Below, in pieces: positions 1-21,524 of a stretch of 21,524 bases of DNA. How positions within the stretch are numbered: the first letter of the stretch is position 1; every line of letters starts with the position of its first letter. The notes under the pieces were generated by a model. That model had not been told where the DNA came from and did not search any database. It saw only the letters and a list, made by a program, of their open reading frames with translations. This DNA is from a virus. A program made the translations under genes and the position numbers. The DNA lies in the IMG/VR virus record IMGVR_UViG_3300017991_004908, positions 1 through 21,524 of that record; one strand, given 5' to 3'.

Positions 1-508
1 CCGTGACCACCTTCTTGTCGTTTCGTTTGGGGGAACTGTCCCGTCCCGAGGCAACGCGAACATCGCCCTTTGGCGCCCCGTCCTCGTCCTCCACACTGAG
101 CCATGATAGCGCAAGCAGGATGCGCCGATTGCGGATGCGGGCATGTCGGTCAGCCTCTGCTCGTTCACGTACTTGTTGGTCTGTGGGCTTAAGAACCTTG
201 CCACTTTCATCCTTCTTGCCTTTGAACTCCGCGCTGAGTGCTTTGCGTGCGGCCTTGAGCCGGGGCTCATCGACCGGGGGCTCATTAGCAAGAGTGTGGC
301 AGAGACCGCCACGTAGCGTTAGCAGCCAGTCACCGAACGCCTTGGCGCCATTGTTGATCGCTTCGTGCGTCGCCCATAGGGCATCACGCCAGGATTGATC
401 GCTGGGATCGGCTCCGCGCAGGCGAAGCGTGTATGCCCGCTGGGTGGTTGGGAAATCGATCTTCGTCTGAACAGACGCTGCTGCAGAAGTGTTAGTGTCC
501 TTCGCCAT
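1..508 (-). CDS. cas12b: Cas12b (C2c1) type V-B effector, N-terminal fragment
   Basis: This is the RNA-guided DNA endonuclease of a type V-B CRISPR-Cas system. The gene runs off the left edge, so only residues 1-169 are visible and the RuvC catalytic residues are not in the window. The ATG at 508 has a strong Shine-Dalgarno site (GGAGGTG) about 8 nt upstream. The fragment begins with a variable tail, then residues 26-70 carry the pattern I associate with Cas12b N-termini: YTLRLRG, a WRDALWATHEAINNGAK helix and FGDWLLTLRGGL. Near residue 130 comes RRILLALSWLSVE. It is third in a minus-strand operon after cas4/cas1 and cas2, 90 bp downstream of cas2, which is the gene content expected of V-B loci. 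The identification rests on remembered family pattern plus gene order. Another type V effector is less likely, because Cas4-Cas1 fusion is typical of V-B and of I-G, and I-G has no such protein. Confidence 0.85.
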   Translation of the reverse strand, partial: MAKDTNTSAAASVQTKIDFPTTQRAYTLRLRGADPSDQSWRDALWATHEAINNGAKAFGDWLLTLRGGLCHTLANEPPVDEPRLKAARKALSAEFKGKKDESGKVLKPTDQQVRERAEADRHARIRNRRILLALSWLSVEDEDGAPKGDVRVASGRDSSPKRNDKKVVT

Positions 509-598
509 CGCTCAACACCTCCCCGAGCCCCCTCTGCGCATTCTTATCGCTGGAGCTCGATCTGTCGCGGGCCGAGTTAAATAGGTCCGCGCGGGAGA

Positions 599-889
599 TT
601 ATATTACCACAATTCCCTCTTCTTGTTCAGGGGGTGAAGGCCCTAATACAATAGCGGACTCCCGGGCGGCGTCTTCGTTAGCGCCGAGATCGACGATCAG
701 GACCTGGTCCTCTTTGAGGTTCAGGATCTCGCGGAGCTCGTTCTCCAGCCGAACGCGGTCGATATCTTTGAGCGTGCAGTAGAAGACGGAGTATTGCCAC
801 GGCTCGCCGTAGGCTTTCATCAGCTTGTGCGTGCGACGGAGGCGCTTGGGGCAGCGGACATCGTAGCAGACCAGGTAGCAGCGGCGCAT
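599..889 (-). CDS. cas2: Cas2, CRISPR adaptation subunit
   Basis: This is the small dimeric partner of Cas1 in the spacer-integration complex. At 96 residues it has normal Cas2 length. The N-terminus has the ferredoxin-fold first strand with the conserved acidic residue (YLVCYDV, D10), followed by PKRLRRTHKLMKAYG and the QYSVFYC strand typical of the family. The LKEDQVLIVDLG segment near residue 60 is the usual fourth strand. The start at 889 has GAGGG about 6 nt upstream. It lies 185 bp downstream of the cas4/cas1 stop, an unusually long gap for a cas operon and one filled by a degenerate repeat, and 90 bp upstream of cas12b. Nothing looks broken. Confidence 0.93.
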   Translation of the reverse strand: MRRCYLVCYDVRCPKRLRRTHKLMKAYGEPWQYSVFYCTLKDIDRVRLENELREILNLKEDQVLIVDLGANEDAARESAIVLGPSPPEQEEGIVVI

Positions 890-972
890 GGGAATCCCTC
901 AGTTACCAGTCGTCAGCAATCAGGCATGAGTCGTTCGCGGCATATCCATCTCAGGGCTGGCGCAATCTCGAG

Positions 973-1059
973 CGATCACGGCGCTGTTAAGCACTCGCGC
1001 TCACCCGTGCCCCTCACGATCGCGGGGCTATTAAGCTCTCGCGCTTGCCCGCTCGCTCA
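973..1059. repeat. Two degenerate tandem copies of a ~44-bp unit between cas1 and cas2
   Basis: Positions 973-1016 and 1017-1059 align end to end at roughly 75% by eye. They share CGATC, TTAAGC and CTCGCGCT blocks in the same order, with one single-base gap. A third, weaker start (GGTCGCGGCTCT) follows at about 1061. The copies fill most of the 185-bp cas1-cas2 gap. They are too diverged and have no spacer between them, so they are not a CRISPR array. They may be a REP-like or MITE-like repeat family, or part of an untranslated RNA. The function is unknown. Confidence 0.5.
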
Positions 1060-1074
1060 TGGTCGCGGCTCTGA

Positions 1075-2874
1075 TCATCGCGTCGTCAGAAACGCCAGCG
1101 TCGGCGCCTCGTCGAGCAGCCACGCCGCGATGAGCCGGGCGTGCAGCATCAACATGCGGCGGTAGCAGAGGCGGTACTCGAATACGGGGTGCGTCACTTC
1201 CGTATCCATGCGACGGCCATAGACTGAAAAAAACGCCTTACGGCCGGCGTCGGTCAAGGCACAGCCCGCCGCCGTGTCGAGGAAATGCCCCGCCGTGAGT
1301 TCCCCGCGATTGAATGCGGAGACGGCGACCGAGTCGGCTATCAATGGGCGAAACGGCTCCACCAGGTCGAGCGCCAACGCCGGCCGGCCGGGCCGCGTGG
1401 CGTGCAGCGCCCCGATAGTCGGCTCCAGGCTCGCAAGGCGACACGCCGCCGTGCATTCGTTCGTGAGCATCGAGTAGCCGAACGACAGCACGGCGTTGAT
1501 CGGATCGGGCGGCGGACGGCGCTGGCGGCCGCTGGCGTCGAATCGTGCGGCGACATCCCGGGCGCACTCCTTGAACATGCCCGCGAAGTGCTTGAAGTAG
1601 ATCGCGGCGGCGGCGCCTTCGTAGCCGCGCAGTACGTCGAGCGTGTCGGCATGCTCGGCGCCGGCCATGCACTCCTGCATCTCGGCGGCGGCGGAACCAG
1701 GCAGGTTATCGTGGTTCCGCATTAGAAGCGTGCGCTGGTTGGCGATTTTCGCAATCGTCACGGCTCGGGCGAGTTCGAGGGCCCGCGGTATCTGATCGAA
1801 AACGCGCACCTGTGCGGAGCGAACCATGGCGCTCGTCGGGCCGAGCGGATCCATCATCGCCGCCAATCGCCCCGCGCCTGTCAGAAACGCGACGGGGACT
1901 TGTTTGTCGGCGAAGACTTGAAGCGCCTGCGTCGATACCTGCACGCCGCCGACGAGCGCCAGCGATTCGAGATTCGCAAGCGGCATGTCTCGAACCAACG
2001 CGCCGTCTTTGTCGGTCACACGTACGGACTTGCCGCGTACGCCGACGCGGACTCCTTGGCGTTGTAGCACGACGTGAACGCCGTCGTCACGCGGCGGCCA
2101 TAATTTCCGTGGACTGACTGTTTTCGCGGTCGATTCGCCGGGGGAAGATGTCGCAGCAGCTCGAGCGTGGTTTATTTCGTCAGGCAGGCAGATCGGCTGA
2201 AGCGAACAGCGCGGACACTTCGGATCGTTTACGAGCGGCGCCGGCCGAGAGCCGCTCGCGGTTCGCCGAGCGGAGTCGAGCTCAGCTTGCGTATACTGGC
2301 GCAGTTCGTCATCGACGACGATACGAACACGGTTTTTCTCGGCAGCATAGTAGATGATTGCTTCAGGAACAGTGTAGCCGGCCTCCTCGAGCAGCAGAAC
2401 CTGCAGACCGACCTGTACGCGATCCGTCGGCCATGGCGTCACGGCGGGCTTCCGCGGCGGAGGCGCCATCATCTCGTCGCACGCTGTGTCAACCTCGCCG
2501 TGACGGTTCGGTCGCCCCTTGCGGTACTCCACGGGAACCGCGCGTGTTCCGTTGATCTCGGCCAGGTCGAGTTTTGCGGTGACGCCCAAACGCTCGCTGC
2601 TCAGCGCCAAACTGCGTACAGAAACCGGGCGTTCCGCGTCAACTTCCTCGTCCTCCAACTTGGCGACTTGTTTCCGGGAATTTCCACGTCGTGAGAGGGC
2701 TGCTTTAGGCTTAGTCGGCGCCTCGCTCGCGTGATCCACGCGTCGATGGACGCCGACGCCGTGTTCCGTGTCCGCACTCGGCAGAAAGACGCCTTCGACC
2801 GCCATGTAGTAGAACAAGCGCGGGCAGTACGCATGTTCCGCTATGTTTCGGGCCGGCCAAAGCGACTGGTTCAT
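1075..2874 (-). CDS. cas4-cas1: Cas4-Cas1 fusion, CRISPR adaptation nuclease/integrase
   Basis: This 599-residue fusion couples Cas4 prespacer trimming and PAM selection to the Cas1 integrase. The Cas4 part (about 1-235) has its iron-sulphur cysteines at C17 (AYCPRLFYY) and C220, C223, C229 (CPRCSLQPIC). Its PD-(D/E)XK residues include D103 and E116, with a Q-motif helix at 154-163. The expected ExK lysine is R118 here, with K119 next to it (VEYRKGRP). A 20-residue linker leads to Cas1 (about 257-599), whose metal ligands look intact: E419 (GYEG), H491 (ALHATRPGR), and D503/E506 (DLVEPF). Fusion in this order is known from types V-B and I-G, and the downstream cas12b decides for V-B. The start at 2874 has only a weak purine stretch (GAGAAAG) upstream. 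It is first in the operon. Adaptation looks complete unless the R118 change matters. Confidence 0.93.
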   Translation of the reverse strand: MNQSLWPARNIAEHAYCPRLFYYMAVEGVFLPSADTEHGVGVHRRVDHASEAPTKPKAALSRRGNSRKQVAKLEDEEVDAERPVSVRSLALSSERLGVTAKLDLAEINGTRAVPVEYRKGRPNRHGEVDTACDEMMAPPPRKPAVTPWPTDRVQVGLQVLLLEEAGYTVPEAIIYYAAEKNRVRIVVDDELRQYTQAELDSARRTASGSRPAPLVNDPKCPRCSLQPICLPDEINHARAAATSSPGESTAKTVSPRKLWPPRDDGVHVVLQRQGVRVGVRGKSVRVTDKDGALVRDMPLANLESLALVGGVQVSTQALQVFADKQVPVAFLTGAGRLAAMMDPLGPTSAMVRSAQVRVFDQIPRALELARAVTIAKIANQRTLLMRNHDNLPGSAAAEMQECMAGAEHADTLDVLRGYEGAAAAIYFKHFAGMFKECARDVAARFDASGRQRRPPPDPINAVLSFGYSMLTNECTAACRLASLEPTIGALHATRPGRPALALDLVEPFRPLIADSVAVSAFNRGELTAGHFLDTAAGCALTDAGRKAFFSVYGRRMDTEVTHPVFEYRLCYRRMLMLHARLIAAWLLDEAPTLAFLTTR

Positions 2875-13698: not shown

Positions 13699-15108
13699 AT
13701 GGACGTGATGCAGGTTGAACAACGGCCGTTGGCCGAGATCAAGCCGTACGAGAATAATCCGCGTCTGAACGATGCGGCGGTGGACGCCGTGGCAGAGTCG
13801 ATTCGGCGGTTCGGGTTCCGCCAGCCGATCGTCGTGGACGAGGCCGGAGTAATTGTCTGCGGTCATACGCGCTGGAAGGCGGCGCAGAAGCTGGGGCTCG
13901 AACAGGCGCCGGTGCATGTGGCGCGCGACCTGACACCTGAGCAGGTTCGGGCGTATCGCATCGCCGACAATAAGACCGCCGAGCTGGCTGACTGGAATCT
14001 TGAGCTGCTGCCGCTGGAGTTGGCGGAACTGCGGGACGCCGGCATCGACTGGTCGCTGCTGGGCTTCGATGCCGACGAACTGTCGCAGCTGATGGACGCG
14101 GCCGCCGGCGTGACGCCGGGGCTGACCGATCCGGACGACGTTCCCGAGCCGCCGGACGATCCGATCACGCAACGCGGCGACCTGTGGATCCTGGGCGAGC
14201 ATCGGCTGCTCTGCGGCGACAGCGCCAGCATCGAGGACGTCGATCGGCTGGTTGACGGGACCGCGATCCATCTCGTGAATACCGATCCGCCGTACAACGT
14301 GAAGGTTGAGCCGCGCTCCAACAATGCGATCGCGGCGGGGTTGTCGTCGTTCTCCGGCGACAAGAGCGACGCGAAAGCGCTCGATGCAAAAGGACGCCAT
14401 CACGGCGGCTTCGACGTCGCGCGCGGCAAGACGGGGATCAAGCATCACCAGAAGCTTGACCTCGAACGCCATCCCGAAAAGGCGAAAGCCACGCATCGCA
14501 AGATGCGGCCCAAGGATCGACCGCTAGAGAACGACTTCGTCTCGCCCGAGGCGTTCGACGAGATGTTGCTGGCGTGGTTCAAGAACTCGTCGCGCGTGCT
14601 CAAGCCGGGCGGATCGTTTTTCATCTGGGGCGGGTATGCGAATCTCGGCAACTATCCGGCGCCGCTGAAGGCCGCCGGGCTGTACTTTTCACAGGGGCTG
14701 GTGTGGGACAAGCAGCATCCGGTGCTGACGCGAAAAGACTTCATGGGCGCGTTTGAAATTTGCTTCTACGGCTGGAAGAAAGGCGCCGGACACAAGTTCT
14801 TCGGGCCGAACAACGCGACCGACCTGTGGCACGTCAAGAAGGTCAATCCGCAGAGCATGCGGCATTTAACCGAGAAGCCGGTCGAACTGGCGGTGCGCGC
14901 GATTCAGTACTCGTCGCGCGTCGGCGAGAACGTGCTCGACCTCTTCGGCGGCAGCGGCTCAACGCTGATCGCGGCCGAACAGACCGGACGGCGGGCGTAC
15001 CTGATGGAGATCGACCCGGCGTACTGCGATGTGATTGTGCAACGTTGGTCTGAATTCGCGGGGCGGGAGGCGGAGCGGCAGACGCGGGACGCCGTTGTCT
15101 CCGAGTGA
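13699..15108 (+). CDS. ParB-like domain fused to DNA methyltransferase
   Basis: This is a 469-residue phage DNA methyltransferase with a ParB/Srx-type N-terminal domain. ParB-like residues 5-75 include EIKPYENNPR and GHTRWKAA (55-62). The methyltransferase part has DPPY (196-199, motif IV) ahead of motif I DLFGGSGST (414-422), the order of beta-class N6-adenine or N4-cytosine enzymes. A large insert rich in K/H lies at about 205-275. GGAGG lies 8 nt before the ATG. No restriction enzyme gene neighbours it, so it is probably a solitary modification enzyme. The modified base and target site cannot be read from sequence. This fusion is common in phages and prophages. Confidence 0.92.
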   Translation: MDVMQVEQRPLAEIKPYENNPRLNDAAVDAVAESIRRFGFRQPIVVDEAGVIVCGHTRWKAAQKLGLEQAPVHVARDLTPEQVRAYRIADNKTAELADWNLELLPLELAELRDAGIDWSLLGFDADELSQLMDAAAGVTPGLTDPDDVPEPPDDPITQRGDLWILGEHRLLCGDSASIEDVDRLVDGTAIHLVNTDPPYNVKVEPRSNNAIAAGLSSFSGDKSDAKALDAKGRHHGGFDVARGKTGIKHHQKLDLERHPEKAKATHRKMRPKDRPLENDFVSPEAFDEMLLAWFKNSSRVLKPGGSFFIWGGYANLGNYPAPLKAAGLYFSQGLVWDKQHPVLTRKDFMGAFEICFYGWKKGAGHKFFGPNNATDLWHVKKVNPQSMRHLTEKPVELAVRAIQYSSRVGENVLDLFGGSGSTLIAAEQTGRRAYLMEIDPAYCDVIVQRWSEFAGREAERQTRDAVVSE

Positions 15109-15351
15109 TCAGGTTTCATTACCCGTGAGAATCTGGAGAGGTTTGTGGAATCTATCGGATTGACATGGCGGCGCCGGCGATCGCTCTTTTCGCGTGACCG
15201 CCGACTAAGAAACGAACGGTTCTTGGCAGAGCCTGCTATGAAACGATCGTTTGCCGGCAAGCAAGCAATAAGTCATGGTACACCTAACTCGCTGGTAAAG
15301 CTGACTTTCCTCAAATCGCTCGCTAGTCAAGGTTACTTTACCTGTGCAGGC
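15109..15351. other. Convergent intergenic region with overlapping palindromes
   Basis: It separates the plus-strand methyltransferase from the minus-strand Doc gene. AAACGATCGTTT (15241-15252) and TTGCCGGCAA (15251-15260) are perfect palindromes sharing two bases. No tRNA fold, clear terminator or ORF with a ribosome site is seen. A long open frame on the plus strand starts here but is a shadow of the minus-strand genes. Confidence 0.4.
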
Positions 15352-15738
15352 TTATCGACTTGCGCGGCACCGCAGAAACTCCGCGATCCGGCGCTTATCG
15401 GCTTCGCCTTGCGCGACGGCCAGAACCAACTCGACCAGATCATCTTCATCAGCTTCGATCTCGACGTCGTTCATCTCCAGAAACACCAAGGCCGCCGCGG
15501 CGCCGGTGCGTTTGTTGCCGTCCACGAAGGGGTGATTCTGAACGATATGGAACATATACGCCGCCGCCATCTCGAACAGGTCATGATGCTGCAACTCGCC
15601 GCCATACGATGCTTGCGGCGCCGCGACCGCCGACATCAACAAGCCCGTGTCGCGGATCGAGGCGTCGCCGCCGTAGCGTTCGATCTGGTCCTGATGAATG
15701 TAGATTACTTCGTTCGCGTGCAGGTGTTCGGGCGTCAT
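15352..15738 (-). CDS. doc: Doc-type toxin (Fic fold)
   Basis: This toxin is of the Fic/Doc superfamily; Doc proteins inactivate EF-Tu by phosphorylation. The signature HPFVDGNKRT is intact at 69-78, with catalytic H69 and the N75/K76/R77 anion-binding residues. The upstream helix YGGDASIRDTGLLMSAVAAP (about 22-41) is also typical of the family. Its 128 residues are normal. It is the second gene of a two-gene operon, starting 6 nt after the antitoxin stop. A canonical Doc kinase and a Fic AMP-transferase differ at a motif position (Fic has HxFx[D/E]GNGR), and the K here favours Doc. It sits in a minus-strand cargo block of the prophage and would act as an addiction or anti-phage module. Confidence 0.9.
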   Translation of the reverse strand: MTPEHLHANEVIYIHQDQIERYGGDASIRDTGLLMSAVAAPQASYGGELQHHDLFEMAAAYMFHIVQNHPFVDGNKRTGAAAALVFLEMNDVEIEADEDDLVELVLAVAQGEADKRRIAEFLRCRASR

Positions 15739-15744
15739 CGGCGC

Positions 15745-15972
15745 CTACTCCGCCAGCTTCTTGAGGGCGCGGCCGTAGCGTTTGTTCGTCTTCTCAAGCG
15801 CCGCCTCGAAGCGTGCTCGCCGCTTACGGTCACGCACCGGCGCGACGGTCAGCGATTCGCCGTCGGTGGACAGTTCGAGCGGCGTCTCGGGCGTGATCTT
15901 GAGCAATTCGAGAATGGCCTTGTCGATGATCAGAGCGTAGCTGTTGCCGTGCTGAGTCAGTCTTTTCACCAT
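15745..15972 (-). CDS. AbrB/MazE-like antitoxin
   Basis: This is the antitoxin partner of the Doc gene. The start is MVKRLTQHGNSYALIIDKAI at 15972, which matches the SpoVT/AbrB swapped-hairpin DNA-binding domain (N-terminal about 45 residues, HGNS-ALIID). AGGAGA lies a few bases upstream. A longer frame beginning at 16104 would cross the promoter and lacks support. The C-terminal basic helix (VRDRKRRARFEAALEKTNKRYGRAL) is where these antitoxins usually wrap their toxin. It has 75 residues. Classic Doc partners are Phd-type, so an AbrB-type partner is a known but less common pairing. It likely represses its own promoter through the dyad just upstream. Confidence 0.85.
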   Translation of the reverse strand: MVKRLTQHGNSYALIIDKAILELLKITPETPLELSTDGESLTVAPVRDRKRRARFEAALEKTNKRYGRALKKLAE

Positions 15973-15991
15973 GGGCGTATCTCCTGTGGCT

Positions 15992-16028
15992 GTATATCTA
16001 TTGTATATACCACGTGTAACCATGGCAA
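15992..16028 (-). promoter_or_regulatory. Toxin-antitoxin promoter with overlapping operator dyad
   Basis: On the minus strand TTGCCA (16028-16023, 5/6 to consensus) is followed by exactly 17 bp and then TACAAT (16005-16000, 5/6). An inverted repeat GTATAT/ATATAC (15992-15997 and 16005-16010) covers the -10 box. That placement is as expected for an antitoxin-bound autorepression operator. The antitoxin ATG at 15972 lies about 20-25 nt below the predicted start site. Confidence 0.65.
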
Positions 16029-16104
16029 GCGAGGATTGCGCAATCTCGGGCGGGTGATAACAGCGGCCGAACGTTGGTCTAACGGCCCTTTCCTGCCGAA
16101 GCAA

Positions 16105-16129
16105 CGCCCCGGCGTCGATCGCCGAGGCG
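16105..16129 (-). terminator. Hairpin terminator candidate after the HARE-HTH gene
   Basis: A 10-bp stem with one G-T pair (16105-16114 with 16120-16129, 5-nt loop) lies 30 bp past the stop of the minus-strand gene ending at 16159. In the minus direction the following TTGCTT is only weakly T-rich. It separates that gene from the toxin-antitoxin promoter. Confidence 0.45.
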
Positions 16130-16158
16130 TTAGGGGCGGGCTCTTTGTTTGCTTCGCG

Positions 16159-16740
16159 TCAGGAGGCGGCGGCAAACTGACCCCGCTCGACCTTGCGAAA
16201 GCGGGCGTCGGCGCCCTTGGCCTTGATCTCGCGGAGGATGGCGGCGTAGAGCGTGGCGTGCGGGGTTTTGCCGTTCGGGCTCGACCAGAGGCCGCGCGCG
16301 GCCATCGTCTCGATCAACGCCTTGCTGGTCATCGGCGCATCTGCGTCGGCGAGTACGGCGGCCGCCGCGTCGAGGGCGCTGATGCGTTTGGGCTTGACCT
16401 CCTTCGTAACCTTGGCGGGTTTGGCGGCCTTCGTGGCGACGTTGACGATCTGGCCGACCTTCGCGGCCGCCTGCTCGGCTTTGGCGACCTCGCCGGCGGC
16501 GCGCGCGGTCTTCGAGGGAATGTCCGACGCCGCGACGGGCGCCTTGGTTTTACGACCGCCCGTCGGTTTGGCTTCGTGCCGCAACCGTTGGGCGCTCTTG
16601 ACATGGATGCGTTTGCCGGTCTTGGTGTTGGTCGCGTTCCAGCCCTGCTTGCTGTGGACGCTGTCGATCCGCACCGGCACGAGCCGATCGCTGACCTTCG
16701 CTACGTACGTGCAGCCGACTTTCACTTCGTTCTTCTTCAT
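16159..16740 (-). CDS. HARE-HTH domain protein
   Basis: This 193-residue basic protein has three parts. Residues 1-55 form a small beta domain (VKVGCTYVAKVSDRLVPVRI..GWNATNTKTGKRIHVKS), SH3-like in pattern. Residues 56-118 are a low-complexity Ala/Lys/Pro linker. Residues 119-190 match the HARE-HTH winged helix (ISALDAAAAVLADADAPMTS, LIETMAARGLWSSPNGKTP, then ATLYAAILREI). HARE-HTH domains occur in bacterial DNA-binding and restriction contexts and in eukaryotic ASXL proteins; small proteins with this layout are, from memory, frequent in Planctomycetota. GGAGA precedes the ATG at 16740. It may be a nucleoid-type or regulatory factor encoded as prophage cargo. No specific target is claimed. 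Confidence 0.75.
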   Translation of the reverse strand: MKKNEVKVGCTYVAKVSDRLVPVRIDSVHSKQGWNATNTKTGKRIHVKSAQRLRHEAKPTGGRKTKAPVAASDIPSKTARAAGEVAKAEQAAAKVGQIVNVATKAAKPAKVTKEVKPKRISALDAAAAVLADADAPMTSKALIETMAARGLWSSPNGKTPHATLYAAILREIKAKGADARFRKVERGQFAAAS

Positions 16741-16818
16741 GGCGTTCTCCCGTGGTTCGCCTCGTCAGGCCCGGATCTCTCGCGCCCGGGCGACCCGCCG
16801 CGGCGGGTTTCGGCGGCG

Positions 16819-17097
16819 TTAATCGTCCACGCCGGCCGCGTCGAAGGCGGCGTCAAGCATGTTGCGGAGCGTGATCGCGGCGTCGAGCGACAGGATGGTT
16901 CTCGTTTCGAGCACGCCGGGGAAGTCGGCGTTGCGCAAGTCGATGCGGACGACCCGCTCGTTGTAAAGGTTGCGTCCGATGTCGACGTTCGGATTTTCGT
17001 ATACGACGCCGACGAATTGGCCGGCGGGCTCGACAGGCGGGCGGGCGGCGTTTTCAGCGTCGGGCGTGTTCGTATTTTTGGTTCTTCGCGTTTTCAT
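16819..17097 (-). CDS. Small hypothetical protein with duplicated leader (copy 1)
   Basis: I do not recognise this 92-residue protein. The first 12 residues (MKTRRTKNTNTP) are nearly the same as those of the next minus-strand gene. The middle (FVGVVYENPNVDIGR, VVRIDLRN) looks like beta strands, and the end is acidic. GGAGAC lies upstream of the ATG. It is part of the minus-strand cargo block, 78 bp upstream of the HARE-HTH gene. Confidence 0.65.
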   Translation of the reverse strand: MKTRRTKNTNTPDAENAARPPVEPAGQFVGVVYENPNVDIGRNLYNERVVRIDLRNADFPGVLETRTILSLDAAITLRNMLDAAFDAAGVDD

Positions 17098-17110
17098 CGT
17101 TGCGTCTCCG
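17065..17110. repeat. 46-bp leader repeat, copy 1 (second copy 17320-17365)
   Basis: Positions 17065-17110 and 17320-17365 align without gaps at 40 of 46 bases. Each covers the ribosome site GGAGAC, the ATG and the first ~11 codons of a minus-strand gene. The downstream coding sequences are unrelated. This indicates duplication or transfer of a translation-start cassette. Confidence 0.8.
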
Positions 17111-17118
17111 TGTTCCGC

Positions 17119-17352
17119 TTACCAGGCGTTCAATCCCATGATCGTTTGCGGGCAGTATCCGCAGCGTCGAGCGGCGCGTTCGATGGCTTGGCGGATCTGG
17201 CGGGTGGCGTTGCGCGAGCGGTAGATCTTGCCGAGCCGTCCCCAACTCAGCGTGTCGATCCGGCGTACGCCGTTGCGGCCCGCGGCCAGCAGCCATTCGA
17301 GCGTCTCCGGGGCGGGTTTCGTGTTCGTCTTTTTGGTCGTTCGCGTTTTCAT
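17119..17352 (-). CDS. Small hypothetical protein with duplicated leader (copy 2)
   Basis: I do not recognise this 77-residue very basic protein. The leader MKTRTTKKTNTK matches the neighbour at 16819-17097. The rest has a helical, Arg/Ala-rich stretch (NATRQIRQAIERAARRCGYC) with C-x2-C at the end of the helix (CGYC), not enough to call a zinc site. GGAGAC lies upstream of the ATG at 17352. It is first of the minus-strand block and divergent from the plus-strand gene that starts at 17401; a 10-bp palindrome (CATGTACATG, 17386-17395) lies in the 48-bp gap. Confidence 0.6.
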   Translation of the reverse strand: MKTRTTKKTNTKPAPETLEWLLAAGRNGVRRIDTLSWGRLGKIYRSRNATRQIRQAIERAARRCGYCPQTIMGLNAW

Positions 17353-17400
17353 CTTTTTGTCTCCGTTTCGTACGCGTCGTGCTTACATGTACATGAAGCC

Positions 17401-17601
17401 ATGAGCTCGGCCGGGAATCAACTCGAAATGCCAGAATATCGAGATATTCTTGATATTCTTGACGGAGGGTCCGAGTCGCCGCCGAACATCGGCCTGAGAG
17501 CGCTCTCGCTGGAGTTCGGGCGTATCGAATCCGCCGTCGAGCGTATACGTCGCCACACGGCGGCCCCGTGGCCGCGAGAGGCGTACTGGGAGGCGGCGTA
17601 G
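17401..17601 (+). CDS. Small hypothetical protein upstream of terminase genes, 66 aa
   Basis: This is the C-terminal end of a 2.4-kb open frame; only the part from the ATG at 17401 is likely real, since the earlier part runs antisense to clear minus-strand genes. The 66 residues (EYRDILDILDGGSES, LEFGRIESAVERIRRHTA) are acidic and helical. There is no good ribosome site, and the ATG at 17428 is an alternative. It ends directly before the next gene's ATG, so it may be the first gene of the packaging operon. The function is unknown. Confidence 0.5.
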   Translation: MSSAGNQLEMPEYRDILDILDGGSESPPNIGLRALSLEFGRIESAVERIRRHTAAPWPREAYWEAA

Positions 17602-17805
17602 ATGGACGAACGCAAGCTCAATCCGGCGGCCCTTTCGTTGGCCGACGCCGCTCAATTACTCAGCGTCGCGGCGGGCCAGCTCGTGACGGTGGTGATGCTC
17701 GAAAAAGACGTGGCCGACGGCGCGCCGACCAATGCGGACGGAACGCTCAATCTGGTGTTCTACGCGGCGTGGCTGGTAAAGGAGGGCGCCGGACGTGGCG
17801 ATTGA
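17602..17805 (+). CDS. Small phage DNA-binding protein, possibly terminase small-subunit-like
   Basis: This is a 67-residue protein that starts on the base after the previous stop, with GGGAGG 8 nt ahead. The pattern LADAAQLLSVAAGQLV, then DVADGAPTNADGTLNLVFYAAWLVKE, is what I recall from Nu1/TerS-like winged-helix proteins in phages (an HTH followed by a GAPTN turn and a YAAWL strand). It overlaps the large terminase by 11 bp. The large terminase also begins with a similar segment (DGKTIDLPRYVGWLVLKR), so both may be DNA-recognition parts of the packaging machine. Assignment is by pattern and position. Confidence 0.55.
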   Translation: MDERKLNPAALSLADAAQLLSVAAGQLVTVVMLEKDVADGAPTNADGTLNLVFYAAWLVKEGAGRGD

Positions 17806-20143
17806 CCCGCGTAAGCTGATGCCGACGCAGCTCGTGCAGTTGCTGAACTCGACTCCGCTGGGCGAGGTCGCCAGCGAACGGACGATCTATCGCCACCGCG
17901 CCCGGGCCGGTTTGCATATCGGCGACGGCAAGACCATCGACCTGCCGCGTTACGTCGGGTGGCTGGTCCTCAAACGCCATCGGCCGCCGCCGGAGCGGGA
18001 CGGGCTCGATAGTTACGAAGCACACAAGGAACGCGCGGCGAAGCGTAATCGCGAGATGGCCCTGCTCGGACGCGACATCGCCACCGGCGAATGGGTACAT
18101 CCGCCGCGGAATATCGAGCAGCGGAACGCCGCCGAACGTGATTTTCGGCTGTTCTGCGAGGCGTATTTTCCGCTGACGTTCCACCTGAAGTGGTCGGATG
18201 ATCATCTGAAGGTGATCGCCAAGATCGAACGGGCGGTGCTCGAGGGCGGGCTGTTCGCGATGGCGATGCCCAGAGGATCGGGTAAGACCTCGATTAGCGA
18301 GACGGCGTGTTTGTGGGCGCTGGTCTACGGCCATCGTGAGTTCGTGACGTTGATCGGCAGCGACGAGGAGCACGCCGCCGGCATGCTGGATTCGATCAAG
18401 GTCGAGTTGGAATCCAACGATTTGCTCGAGGACGACTTCGCCGAGGTGGTCGGTCCGGTGCGCGCGCTGGAGGGGATCCATCAGCGCGCTTCCGGCCAGA
18501 TCTACAGCGGTAGGCAGACCCATATCGGCTGGACGGCGCGCGAGATCGTCTTGCCGACGTTGCCGCCGCTGGAATGGCTCGGGAATCGCTGTCCGAAATC
18601 CAACGGGGCGATCATCAAGGTCGCCGGCATCACCGGACGGATTCGCGGGATGAAGCATAAGCGGGCCGACGGATCGTCGATTCGACCGTCGCTGGTGTTG
18701 ATCGATGACCCGCAGACGGACGAGTCGGCGCGATCGCCTTCTCAATGCGCGACGCGCGAGCGGATCCTGGCCGGGGCGATTCTGGGTTTGGCCGGGCCGG
18801 GGCGAAAAATCGCCGGCCTGATGGCGTTGACGGTCGTACGACCCGAGGACCTGGCGGATCGGATCCTCGATCGGGAGAAGCACCCGCAGTGGCAAGGGGA
18901 GCGGACGAAGATGGTGTACGAGTTCCCGGCTGACGAAGCGTTGTGGACTCGGTACGCGGAACTATGGCGTGAGGGGATGCGGGCCGATCGCGGAGCGCGC
19001 GAGGCGACCGAGTTCTATCGCCTCCATCGTGAGCAGATGGACGTCGGCGCCGTCGTCGCGTGGCCCGAGCGAAAGAATCCCGATGAACTGTCTGCCTTGC
19101 AGCATGCGATGAACCTGCGTCTCGATCGCGGCGATGTAGCGTTCTGGTCGGAATATCAGAACGAACCGTTGCCGGAGGTCGAGGAAGACGCCGAGTTGCT
19201 CACGGCCGACCAGATCGCGGCGAAACTCAACGGCCACAAACGCGGCGAGATCCCGATCGGTTGTACGCACCTGACGATGTTCGTCGACGTGCAGGGCAAG
19301 GCGCTGTTCTGGATTCTGGCGGCGTGGGAAGACGAGTTCACCGGCTACGTGGTCGATTACGGCACGGAGCCGGAGCAGGGGACGGGGTATTTCACGCTAC
19401 CTGAGATCAAGCGGACGCTGCAGCGCACGGCGCCGAAAGCAGGCTTGGAGGCCGCGATCTACGCCGGCCTGGAGCGACTCACCGAACGAACGATCGGCAA
19501 GGAATGGCGGCGCGACGACGGCGCGGCGATGCGGGTCGATCGATGCCTGATCGACGCGAACTGGGGGAGATCGACTGACGTCGTGTATCAATTCTGTCGG
19601 CAGAACAAGTACGCCGGCGTGGTGATGCCGAGCCACGGTAAGTACGTCGGCGCGGCGAGTCGGCCGTTAAACGAATATCAACGCAAACGCGGCGACCGCG
19701 TCGGCCTGAACTGGCGCATCCCGGTCATCGCCGGCCGACGAGCAGTTCGGCATGTGGTCTACGACACCAACTTCTGGAAATCGTTTGTTCACGAGCGTCT
19801 GTCCGTGCCTATGGGCGACTCGGGTTGCCTGTCGTTGTTCGGTGGGCGGCACAGGGGTATTGCCTGTGATTCCACAGCGTCCGGCCTCAATCTCGGCTCT
19901 GATCAACATCGCCTGCTCGCCGATCACCTGACCAGCGAGTATCGCGTGAAGACCGAGGGGCGCGGCCGAACGGTCGATGAATGGAAGCTCCGCGCCGACG
20001 GCCGCGACAACCACTGGCTCGACGGCCTGGTCGGCTGCGCCGTCGCCGCGTCGATCGAAGGCGCCGACGTGTTCGGCGAGAGGTGCAAGCCGACTGGTCG
20101 GAAACGAATCCGACTATCAGACCTGCAGAGGGCGAAACGATGA
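17795..20143 (+). CDS. terL: Phage terminase large subunit with N-terminal DNA-binding segment
   Basis: This is the ATP-driven packaging motor and nuclease of the phage. GTG start at 17795 with GGAGGG 8 nt ahead. Residues 10-60 look like a terminase-small-subunit-like winged helix (RTIYRHRARAGLHIGDGKTI). The ATPase domain has Walker A MPRGSGKT (158-165) and Walker B VLIDD (301-305). The C-terminal RNase H-like nuclease has acidic residues in FVDVQGKALFWILA (D498), CLIDANWGRS (D587) and WLDGL (D743). At 782 residues it is longer than most TerL proteins, consistent with the extra N-terminal part and the GpA-like group. It is followed by ATGA-coupled translation of a zinc-ribbon gene, but no portal gene follows. 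Confidence 0.9.
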   Translation: MAIDPRKLMPTQLVQLLNSTPLGEVASERTIYRHRARAGLHIGDGKTIDLPRYVGWLVLKRHRPPPERDGLDSYEAHKERAAKRNREMALLGRDIATGEWVHPPRNIEQRNAAERDFRLFCEAYFPLTFHLKWSDDHLKVIAKIERAVLEGGLFAMAMPRGSGKTSISETACLWALVYGHREFVTLIGSDEEHAAGMLDSIKVELESNDLLEDDFAEVVGPVRALEGIHQRASGQIYSGRQTHIGWTAREIVLPTLPPLEWLGNRCPKSNGAIIKVAGITGRIRGMKHKRADGSSIRPSLVLIDDPQTDESARSPSQCATRERILAGAILGLAGPGRKIAGLMALTVVRPEDLADRILDREKHPQWQGERTKMVYEFPADEALWTRYAELWREGMRADRGAREATEFYRLHREQMDVGAVVAWPERKNPDELSALQHAMNLRLDRGDVAFWSEYQNEPLPEVEEDAELLTADQIAAKLNGHKRGEIPIGCTHLTMFVDVQGKALFWILAAWEDEFTGYVVDYGTEPEQGTGYFTLPEIKRTLQRTAPKAGLEAAIYAGLERLTERTIGKEWRRDDGAAMRVDRCLIDANWGRSTDVVYQFCRQNKYAGVVMPSHGKYVGAASRPLNEYQRKRGDRVGLNWRIPVIAGRRAVRHVVYDTNFWKSFVHERLSVPMGDSGCLSLFGGRHRGIACDSTASGLNLGSDQHRLLADHLTSEYRVKTEGRGRTVDEWKLRADGRDNHWLDGLVGCAVAASIEGADVFGERCKPTGRKRIRLSDLQRAKR

Positions 20144-20325
20144 CGCACGACAGGGATGTCAAGAAGAAAGCGGACGAACAACGCGGGATCCAGTGTCCGA
20201 AGTGCGGCTGCCGTCATTTTCACGTGCTCTACACGCGGCGGGCCTGGGGCGGTCGGATCGTTCGCCGGCGCGAGTGCCGGCATTGCGGCCGCCGAATCAC
20301 AACCCACGAACGAGCAACAGCCTGA
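20140..20325 (+). CDS. NrdR-like zinc-ribbon protein
   Basis: This is a 61-residue protein whose centre copies the zinc ribbon of the repressor NrdR: CPKCG at about 19-23, then RRRECRHCGRRITTHE at about 43-58. NrdR's ATP-cone domain is missing, so it is not NrdR itself. Its start overlaps the terminase stop (ATGA) with GAGGG ahead. Small proteins of this type may regulate late genes, as Ogr-like zinc activators do, but that is only an analogy. It is the last recognisable phage gene in the window. Confidence 0.75.
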   Translation: MTHDRDVKKKADEQRGIQCPKCGCRHFHVLYTRRAWGGRIVRRRECRHCGRRITTHERATA

Positions 20326-20350: not shown

Positions 20351-21524
20351 ATGGGAAAAGATGGGGACGCACCTTACGATTCCGTACTGCAGAGGTTATA
20401 CTACTGGAGCTGGAGCCAAGGAGTCCGACGCCAATTGCTCTCAAAAAGCTCTACTGCCCGGGTAGATCACATGACTTTCATCCCAATACAGCGAATGCGA
20501 GAACGACTGAAGGCTGAGGCCCAAGACTCGGATACGACCTTGTATTCGGCTTCGCTCTACTACGGCGAACTCGTGCTAAAGCTGATAACAGCCGGAATGA
20601 TTGCAGCTGTTCGCGACGACCGTAGTCGGCTCCGCTACCGCCAGTGCCACCATCTCGTGCGTGCGGACGGTCTCGGCGACTGGCCCATGGCGTTGCGTGA
20701 TGTCTTGATGGGGCAATCCTCGCAGTATCTCGATCCATCTGCACAAACAGACGTCCAAGAGCTGACCCAGAAAGCTTCCCGGGGTACCCTTGCTTATGAC
20801 GCAACGCAGTTGTTGCATGAGTGTTTGTTTAGCATGCAGATCGAACCGCCGGCAGCAGGTGGTCGCATGTCAATAATGCACTGGGCAGAGGCATTCGTAC
20901 ACTTGAGGAACAAGACACGTGGTCATGGCGCCCAGCGCAGCAGCGTTCTTGGCATGGTTTCCGCTAAGCTGAGGGAGTCGGTGAACCGAGTAGCGGATGG
21001 CCTGTCTCTATTCGAGCGGCCATGGGCCTACCTGAAACGCAATCTCTCTGGTAAGTATCGTGTCACAGTACTCGCTGGCGATCCCGGCTGCTTCGCTGAT
21101 TTGAAAAGACGTTCCGACGTGCGGCTTGAGAACGGCGTATATGCCATGTTTGACGTAAGGCGGCGCGTTGAATTGCTGCATTCAAACCCAGAGGGATCCG
21201 ATTTCCTGTTGCCTAATGGTAGTTTTACGCCAAAGCGGTTCGAGATCCTGTCATACATCACTGGTGACACACAGTTTGTTTCTTCACAGCACTATCTCCT
21301 GCCAGCGGAAGAACTTCCTGCAAGTGAAACGGAGGGTCTCGGAAACCTTAACGAGATAGGTGACTGCTTCTGCAACATTCCACCCGAACCTAGCGGTTAC
21401 GTTGCGCGGAGTGAGCTGGAGTCACAACTGAGGAGGGAATTGGCGATGCACGATCGTCATCCGATCGTCTCGCTCACGGGGCCTGGCGGCATCGGTAAGA
21501 CATCTACCACCCTGCGCGTGTTGC
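20351..21524 (+). CDS. STAND-type NTPase with possible HEPN-like N-terminal domain, partial
   Basis: The gene runs off the right edge, so residues 1-391 only are visible. I start at the ATG at 20351; the in-frame ATG at 20471 (residue 41) is the alternative, and neither has a good ribosome site. The end holds a P-loop GPGGIGKT (residues 377-384) preceded by YVARSELESQLRREL, the usual lead-in of NB-ARC/STAND ATPases that sense a trigger. The first ~330 residues are a helical domain containing LRNKTRGHGA: R186-N187, then H192, an Rx5H arrangement compatible with HEPN ribonucleases. A nearby segment (DDRSRLRYRQCHHLVRADG) looks conserved. Codon use (ATA, CTA, AGG) and lower GC differ from the phage genes. 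A defence role is inferred from architecture and neighbours. Confidence 0.7.
   Translation, partial: MGKDGDAPYDSVLQRLYYWSWSQGVRRQLLSKSSTARVDHMTFIPIQRMRERLKAEAQDSDTTLYSASLYYGELVLKLITAGMIAAVRDDRSRLRYRQCHHLVRADGLGDWPMALRDVLMGQSSQYLDPSAQTDVQELTQKASRGTLAYDATQLLHECLFSMQIEPPAAGGRMSIMHWAEAFVHLRNKTRGHGAQRSSVLGMVSAKLRESVNRVADGLSLFERPWAYLKRNLSGKYRVTVLAGDPGCFADLKRRSDVRLENGVYAMFDVRRRVELLHSNPEGSDFLLPNGSFTPKRFEILSYITGDTQFVSSQHYLLPAEELPASETEGLGNLNEIGDCFCNIPPEPSGYVARSELESQLRRELAMHDRHPIVSLTGPGGIGKTSTTLRVL

Follow-up and report, generated by a model that had tools for sequence, protein, structure and literature searches.

Fusions of HEPN domains to STAND NTPases, some of them with TPR repeats, were predicted in bacteria by Anantharaman et al. 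2013 (PMC3710099), and the Swt1-like HEPN group includes HEPN-STAND-TPR proteins such as Npun_F6454 and Desac_1927 (PMC3710099). The HEPN signature consists of an Rx4-6H motif with a polar residue after the R and, in many families, of Ex3[KR] in helix 2, and the active-site motif is located where helix 3 ends and the loop leading to helix 4 begins (PMC3710099). The protein family considered here has the same general order as the Swt1-like HEPN-STAND-TPR proteins, i.e., an N-terminal HEPN or HEPN-like domain with an R-N...H motif, followed by an NB-ARC-type STAND NTPase and by TPR repeats.

The member from which this analysis starts lies at one end of a linear, virus-classed record of 21,524 bases, a fragment that is analyzed here as a whole and called the window. 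Its reading frame contains no stop codon between 20156 and the end of the window, and translation from the ATG at 20351 gives 391 aa that contain LRNKTRGHGA (R186 and H192 in that numbering) and, at the very end, the P-loop GPGGIGKT. In a 72-row family alignment, the relatives begin at the residue matching M41 of this window protein (P0001), which corresponds to the codon ATG 20471. The true start is therefore probably ATG 20471 and not ATG 20351, and the 40 residues that the latter would add, which are unaligned, are probably untranslated. The gene (20471..21523, plus strand) is incomplete because the viral fragment ends there, leaving 351 aa from ATG 20471 of the ~870 expected; its reading frame is intact as far as it runs, with all invariant residues present, and no promoter or terminator match was found near the gene start. 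The ORF is genuine, in frame and above chance, since the same protein recurs at full length (~870 aa) in viral contigs and in 67 genome loci.

On its own, the window protein gave nothing useful against Pfam, PADLOC, NCBIfam, PHROGs and the PDB except a weak P-loop match, and the first collection scans with this single sequence found no relatives, including no match among 50,697 phage records. A degenerate pattern for LRNKxRGHGA run on viral contigs selected five viral stretches, and all five encode relatives of the window protein over their entire available length (one, L006, is itself cut), which is strong evidence of homology because the pattern could have matched anything. Profile-guided scans then yielded 6 viral loci and 67 loci in one-per-species genomes (84,980 species genomes) from about 17 phyla, most of these 67 being full length (~870 aa); the relatives are 32–46% identical to the window protein over ~310 aa. 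The collection scan selected partly by the RNKTRGHGA-type motif, with a second pattern also used. A search with an HMM in 791 non-seed Pseudomonadota and Bacteroidota genomes gave 3 positives, all with RNKTRGHG and all in genomes already found (L042, L046 and L048). By sequence, this is a coherent, unnamed family of bacterial proteins, rare but widely scattered. Its tree mixes phyla, requiring 24 phylum changes against a minimum of 16 for about 17 phyla, and joins the window sequence, though distantly, to those of Myxococcota and Desulfobacterales. The most divergent member, in Nocardioides (L060, 9971-12592), has an end branch of about 2 and still keeps RNKTRGHGA. Bacterial contigs carry nearly all the relatives and virus-classed ones only a few, and an integrase is present in 3 of the 6 related virus records.

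In full-length relatives (57 of them were aligned with the window protein to define the layout), a helical N-domain (1-183) is followed by a beta-rich module (184-301), the NB-ARC, a winged-helix-like part and C-terminal helical repeats. An AlphaFold model of the 310-residue N-terminal part of the window protein has a mean pLDDT of 94.3, and places helices of the HEPN-like N-domain (residues 1-183 from the M at 20471; 20471..21019, plus strand) at 4-17, 21-45, 54-121 (an insert), 135-149 and 157-177. The beta-rich module lies between the N-domain and the NTPase (21020..21373, plus strand; model strands 185-301), has no match in Pfam, and contains the invariant residues G194, G222, N249, G250 and E258. 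The NTPase begins in the window with the Walker A GPGGIGKT (21374..21523, plus strand), whose P-loop K (K342) is invariant in 57 of 57 relatives; Walker B and the winged-helix-like and TPR-like parts fall beyond the contig, so that the window gene itself has Walker A only. Across relatives, Walker A (GxGGIGKT) is invariant and Walker B (FDNFET) is conserved, Pfam NB-ARC scores above its cut-off in four out of four full-length relatives, the NACHT profile matches some members, and TPR profile matches, mostly weak, fall at the C-terminus. The full-length model of one relative (L014) has a mean pLDDT of 89.0, with helical repeats at 641-866, and its center resembles CED-4, Apaf-1 and NRC structures (best Foldseek E 7e-10; VIA Z 25.9 to a plant NLR resistosome over 314 residues at 2.9 A, and 25.1 to CED-4). 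An earlier note on this DNA had read the gene as a STAND NTPase, which is borne out by the Walker motifs in an NB-ARC fold among the relatives, the Pfam matches and these structural likenesses. Mean pairwise identity is 0.52 in the nucleotide-binding domain, 0.39 in the N-domain and 0.31 in the C-terminal repeats; as judged from these sequences, the NTPase changes slowest and the repeats fastest, as is expected for a switch and a sensor.

The identity of the N-domain is less direct. In its R-N-K-T-R-G-H motif (R146, N147, H152; 20906..20926, plus strand), the predicted RNase active site, R, N and H never vary, either among 57 of 57 relatives or in all 71 alignment rows that cover it. Since selection in the collection scan relied in part on the motif, this invariance was checked in seven members whose motif deviates (RNKTKGHG, RNKPRGHG, RNRTRGHG), namely L018, L025, L027, L029, L031, L032 and L044, which were findable only by the second pattern, and these also keep R, N and H. 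Upstream, an E-x3-K motif (E33 and K37; 20567..20581, plus strand) lies in helix 2, inside 21-45, with E in 57 of 57 relatives and K in 54, replaced by R in 3. In the model, R146 is in helix 135-149 and H152 in the loop before helix 157-177. Alignment and model thus show three HEPN features of sequence and topology, i.e., R-N-x4-H, an upstream Ex3[KR] and a motif at the end of helix 3, the last of which counts the helices at 54-121 as an insert. Against HEPN stands this large insert between helix 2 and the motif helix. Moreover, the N-domain has no match below Foldseek E 0.001 among solved structures (best E 0.45, VIA Z below 5), Csm6 (Z 3.8) and Las1 (Z 2.9) being among the noise-level fold matches; a fold search of a viral library gave noise only, and there is no significant match in Pfam, PADLOC, NCBIfam or PDB sequences. 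Comparison by hhalign with Swt1, RiboL-PSP, Abi_C and DUF4145 is not significant, with the best alignment in register on the motif for three of the four, and the Abi_C profile score of 16.9 is also not significant against a column-shuffle null of 11.5 ± 2.4 (maximum 25.5). Matches to DUF3025, Cas3b, FlhF and Crp/Fnr were set aside as chance, having low scores and not being common to the relatives. Because the motifs fit but fold and profile comparisons give no significant match, the N-domain is called only likely to be HEPN, a call that rests on motif and topology.

These results bear on several points of the earlier note. It had held LRNKTRGHGA compatible with the HEPN Rx4-6H motif, and the invariant R, N and H, the upstream E-x3-[KR] and the helix positions agree with this, but a significant likeness to a solved HEPN fold or profile is lacking. 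The structure prediction and profile search that it proposed returned a confident model with the motifs at HEPN positions, but again no significant match, and the domain, which it could not assign to a named family, has no assignment in Pfam, PADLOC and NCBIfam either. It had also named loss of R/H conservation as a ground for abandoning the idea, and R146 and H152 are conserved throughout.

In the window, the gene comes right after phage packaging genes and shares its strand with a gpA-type terminase large subunit (17795..20140, plus strand; Pfam GpA_nuclease 7e-21, PHROG terminase 9e-37) and a small zinc-ribbon protein read by eye (CPKCG...CRHCG; 20141..20323, plus strand). Other upstream phage-like genes, assigned with Pfam and PHROGs, encode a ParB-methyltransferase fusion, a Prim-Pol/DUF3987 primase, a helicase, an annealing protein and an exonuclease. 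The fusion, in the phage replication region, joins a ParB-N domain to an N6/N4 DNA methyltransferase (13699-15105, plus strand), and an 818-aa ORF before the terminase (15145-17598, plus strand) is without a Pfam or PHROG match. At the other contig end, on the minus strand, are type V-B CRISPR-Cas genes (window 1-2874): an N-terminal Cas12b/C2c1 fragment at the left contig edge (2-508), Cas2 (599-889) and a Cas4-Cas1 fusion (1075-2874). No array of CRISPR repeats was recognized anywhere in the 21,524-base window. A prophage and a CRISPR system had been noted as neighbors, and both are present, with the phage genes immediately upstream, but the CRISPR genes are ~17 kb away and on the opposite strand.

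Many of the 179 neighbor genes at the family loci score against restriction-modification models of types I, II, IIG and IV, and nine against phage integrases. A control of 85 random genes from other genome stretches matched 12 PADLOC families, each of a generic, helicase-like or comparable kind, and no restriction-modification model; as PADLOC families are redundant and the random stretches come from part of the taxa only, this is a contrast between neighbors and random genes, not a count of defense genes. Several family neighborhoods consist of metabolic genes. No conserved operon partner was found among the neighbors, so the family gene probably acts as a single-gene system. Beside it in three loci (L012, 2507-7587; L052, 3631-8654; L064, 3206-8754) is a recurring cassette of a GHKL/MutL-like ATPase and an unassigned protein, with a C5 DNA methyltransferase close by; it may be a separate restriction-like system. 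The patchy spread across phyla and the defense-island and mobile-element neighbors resemble those of horizontally moving defense genes, a resemblance that is not proof of defense.

The NLR/apoptosome fold, the invariant RNase-type site in the N-domain and the divergence pattern of repeats and NTPase are the reasons for proposing, with reasonable confidence, a single-gene NLR-type abortive-infection sensor that releases an N-terminal HEPN-like RNase on activation. By analogy with NLRs, the TPR-like repeats at the C-terminus would keep the NB-ARC ATPase inactive and ADP-bound as long as the cell is at rest. A phage product, or a host factor altered by infection, could bind the repeats, upon which the NB-ARC would swap its nucleotide and oligomerize, gathering several HEPN-like domains. 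HEPN RNases work as dimers. Paired R-N-x4-H sites, together with E33 and K37, would then be switched on and cleave RNA of both cell and phage, halting the infection at the expense of the cell; on the window contig, the gene would travel as cargo on a phage or prophage and guard against competing phages. In this scheme, the ligand of the sensor, the oligomeric state, the RNA target and cell death are all what we infer. It is also possible, and proposed more tentatively, that the N-terminal unit, i.e., the helical R-N-x4-H/E-x3-K domain plus the beta module, is an undescribed effector, either a highly derived HEPN or a non-HEPN fold in which this RNase site evolved as well, with an NB-ARC wheel of the apoptosome type to drive it. 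The family would then be a bacterial counterpart of the Apaf-1/CED-4 switches of animals, its output being RNA cleavage.

Other readings of the same data can be weighed against the sensor with an RNase head. The N-domain of an NLR-type defense sensor could be some other all-alpha effector, whether a nuclease of another type, an enzyme that modifies nucleotides or an adaptor, in which R-N-x4-H and E-x3-K would be convergent. The lack of a fold or profile match to HEPN, the invariant GHGA and conserved helical insert, which are outside the general HEPN signature, and the separate beta module at 184-301 are consistent with this, but three invariant HEPN signatures (R-N-x4-H, Ex3[KR] and the helix positions) coincide, for three of the four HEPN families compared the top local alignment falls in register on the motif, and Csm6 and Las1 appear among the weak fold matches, which makes a non-HEPN effector rather unlikely. 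That the protein is an ordinary STAND signaling or transcription regulator of the MalT/AfsR kind, having no role in phage defense and a merely structural motif, seems improbable: the neighborhoods made of metabolic genes and a P-loop profile common to STAND regulators such as AfsR speak for it, but the rare, patchy spread, the nearby restriction-modification genes and integrases, and the lack of a conserved neighbor that could be a regulon speak against it. The transcription-regulator form, a refutation already foreseen in the earlier note, was set aside, as the C-terminal part consists of TPR-like repeats and a DNA-binding domain was found neither in the full-length model nor among the Pfam matches.

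A regulator or anti-defense factor specific to the window virus, or a non-functional cargo remnant, would fit a gene that directly follows, in the same orientation, those for the terminase and the zinc-ribbon protein, and would also fit the few relatives on virus-classed contigs; it is very improbable, given that almost all relatives are bacterial, that the 50,697 phage records hold no match and that the frame is intact with every invariant residue in place.

Read as an NLR-type abortive-infection sensor, the family can be set beside known defense systems. Avs (AVAST) proteins have the same tripartite effector-STAND-repeat layout, and Avs3 and Avs5 are among the Foldseek matches of the full-length model, but their effectors are different (nuclease, SIR2 and others), as are their STAND subtypes, whereas the family combines NB-ARC with a HEPN-like effector; PADLOC 2.0 (2023) models, Avs included, gave no convincing match to the window gene and four full-length relatives. 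The bNACHT and bacterial NLR-related proteins likewise have a STAND NTPase with an N-terminal effector and a C-terminal sensor, but the center of the family is closest to NB-ARC/apoptosome structures (CED-4, Apaf-1 and plant NLR), and no HEPN-headed bNACHT was found in the literature searched. With HEPN RNases (Csm6, Las1, Cas13, RnlA, PrrC/RloC and Abi_C) the family shares R-N-x4-H and Ex3[KR], the Abi_C motif being LRNK...HG, but overall similarity of sequence and fold is not significant and the motif helix of the family follows a large helical insert.

Compared with the Swt1-like group, the N-domains do not align; that of the family is longer, with the helical insert and the RNKTRGHGA signature, and is followed by the ~120-residue beta module. 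A Rhizobium etli NB-ARC protein (P0002) with an RNSVMH motif and a weak HEPN_Swt1 match, an example of that group, shares only the NB-ARC region with the family in BLASTP (28% identical to L014, E 5e-19). On a Rhizobium etli plasmid (L007, 3500-6046), an NB-ARC-TPR protein with the Swt1-like HEPN motif RNSVMHGR carries a different HEPN-type head on a related chassis. When 299 Pseudomonadota genomes were scanned for other N-domains attached to the NB-ARC/TPR half, every match at E <= 1e-10 was a family member, which gave no series of exchanged heads going further than P0002. A literature search, which left subscription journals mostly outside and is weak evidence, found no paper describing the family. 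The gene had been taken for an uncharacterized, possibly new defense gene; it is absent from PADLOC, but HEPN-STAND-TPR fusions were already described in 2013 (PMC3710099), which takes away part of the novelty. What sets the family apart, in a kind of protein that is already known, is the N-domain with its beta module; the family has neither a Pfam model for the N-domain nor a PADLOC entry. Full-length family genes exist in several cultured bacteria, among them Photobacterium obscurum (L033), Cohnella nanjingensis (L057) and Allomuricauda abyssi (L035), in which RNA cleavage, assembly of the wheel and the phage trigger are directly testable. If the proposal is true, bacterial immunity gains a single-gene NLR with RNase output and an apoptosome-type NB-ARC, and related NB-ARC/TPR chassis are joined to differing N-terminal HEPN-type heads.
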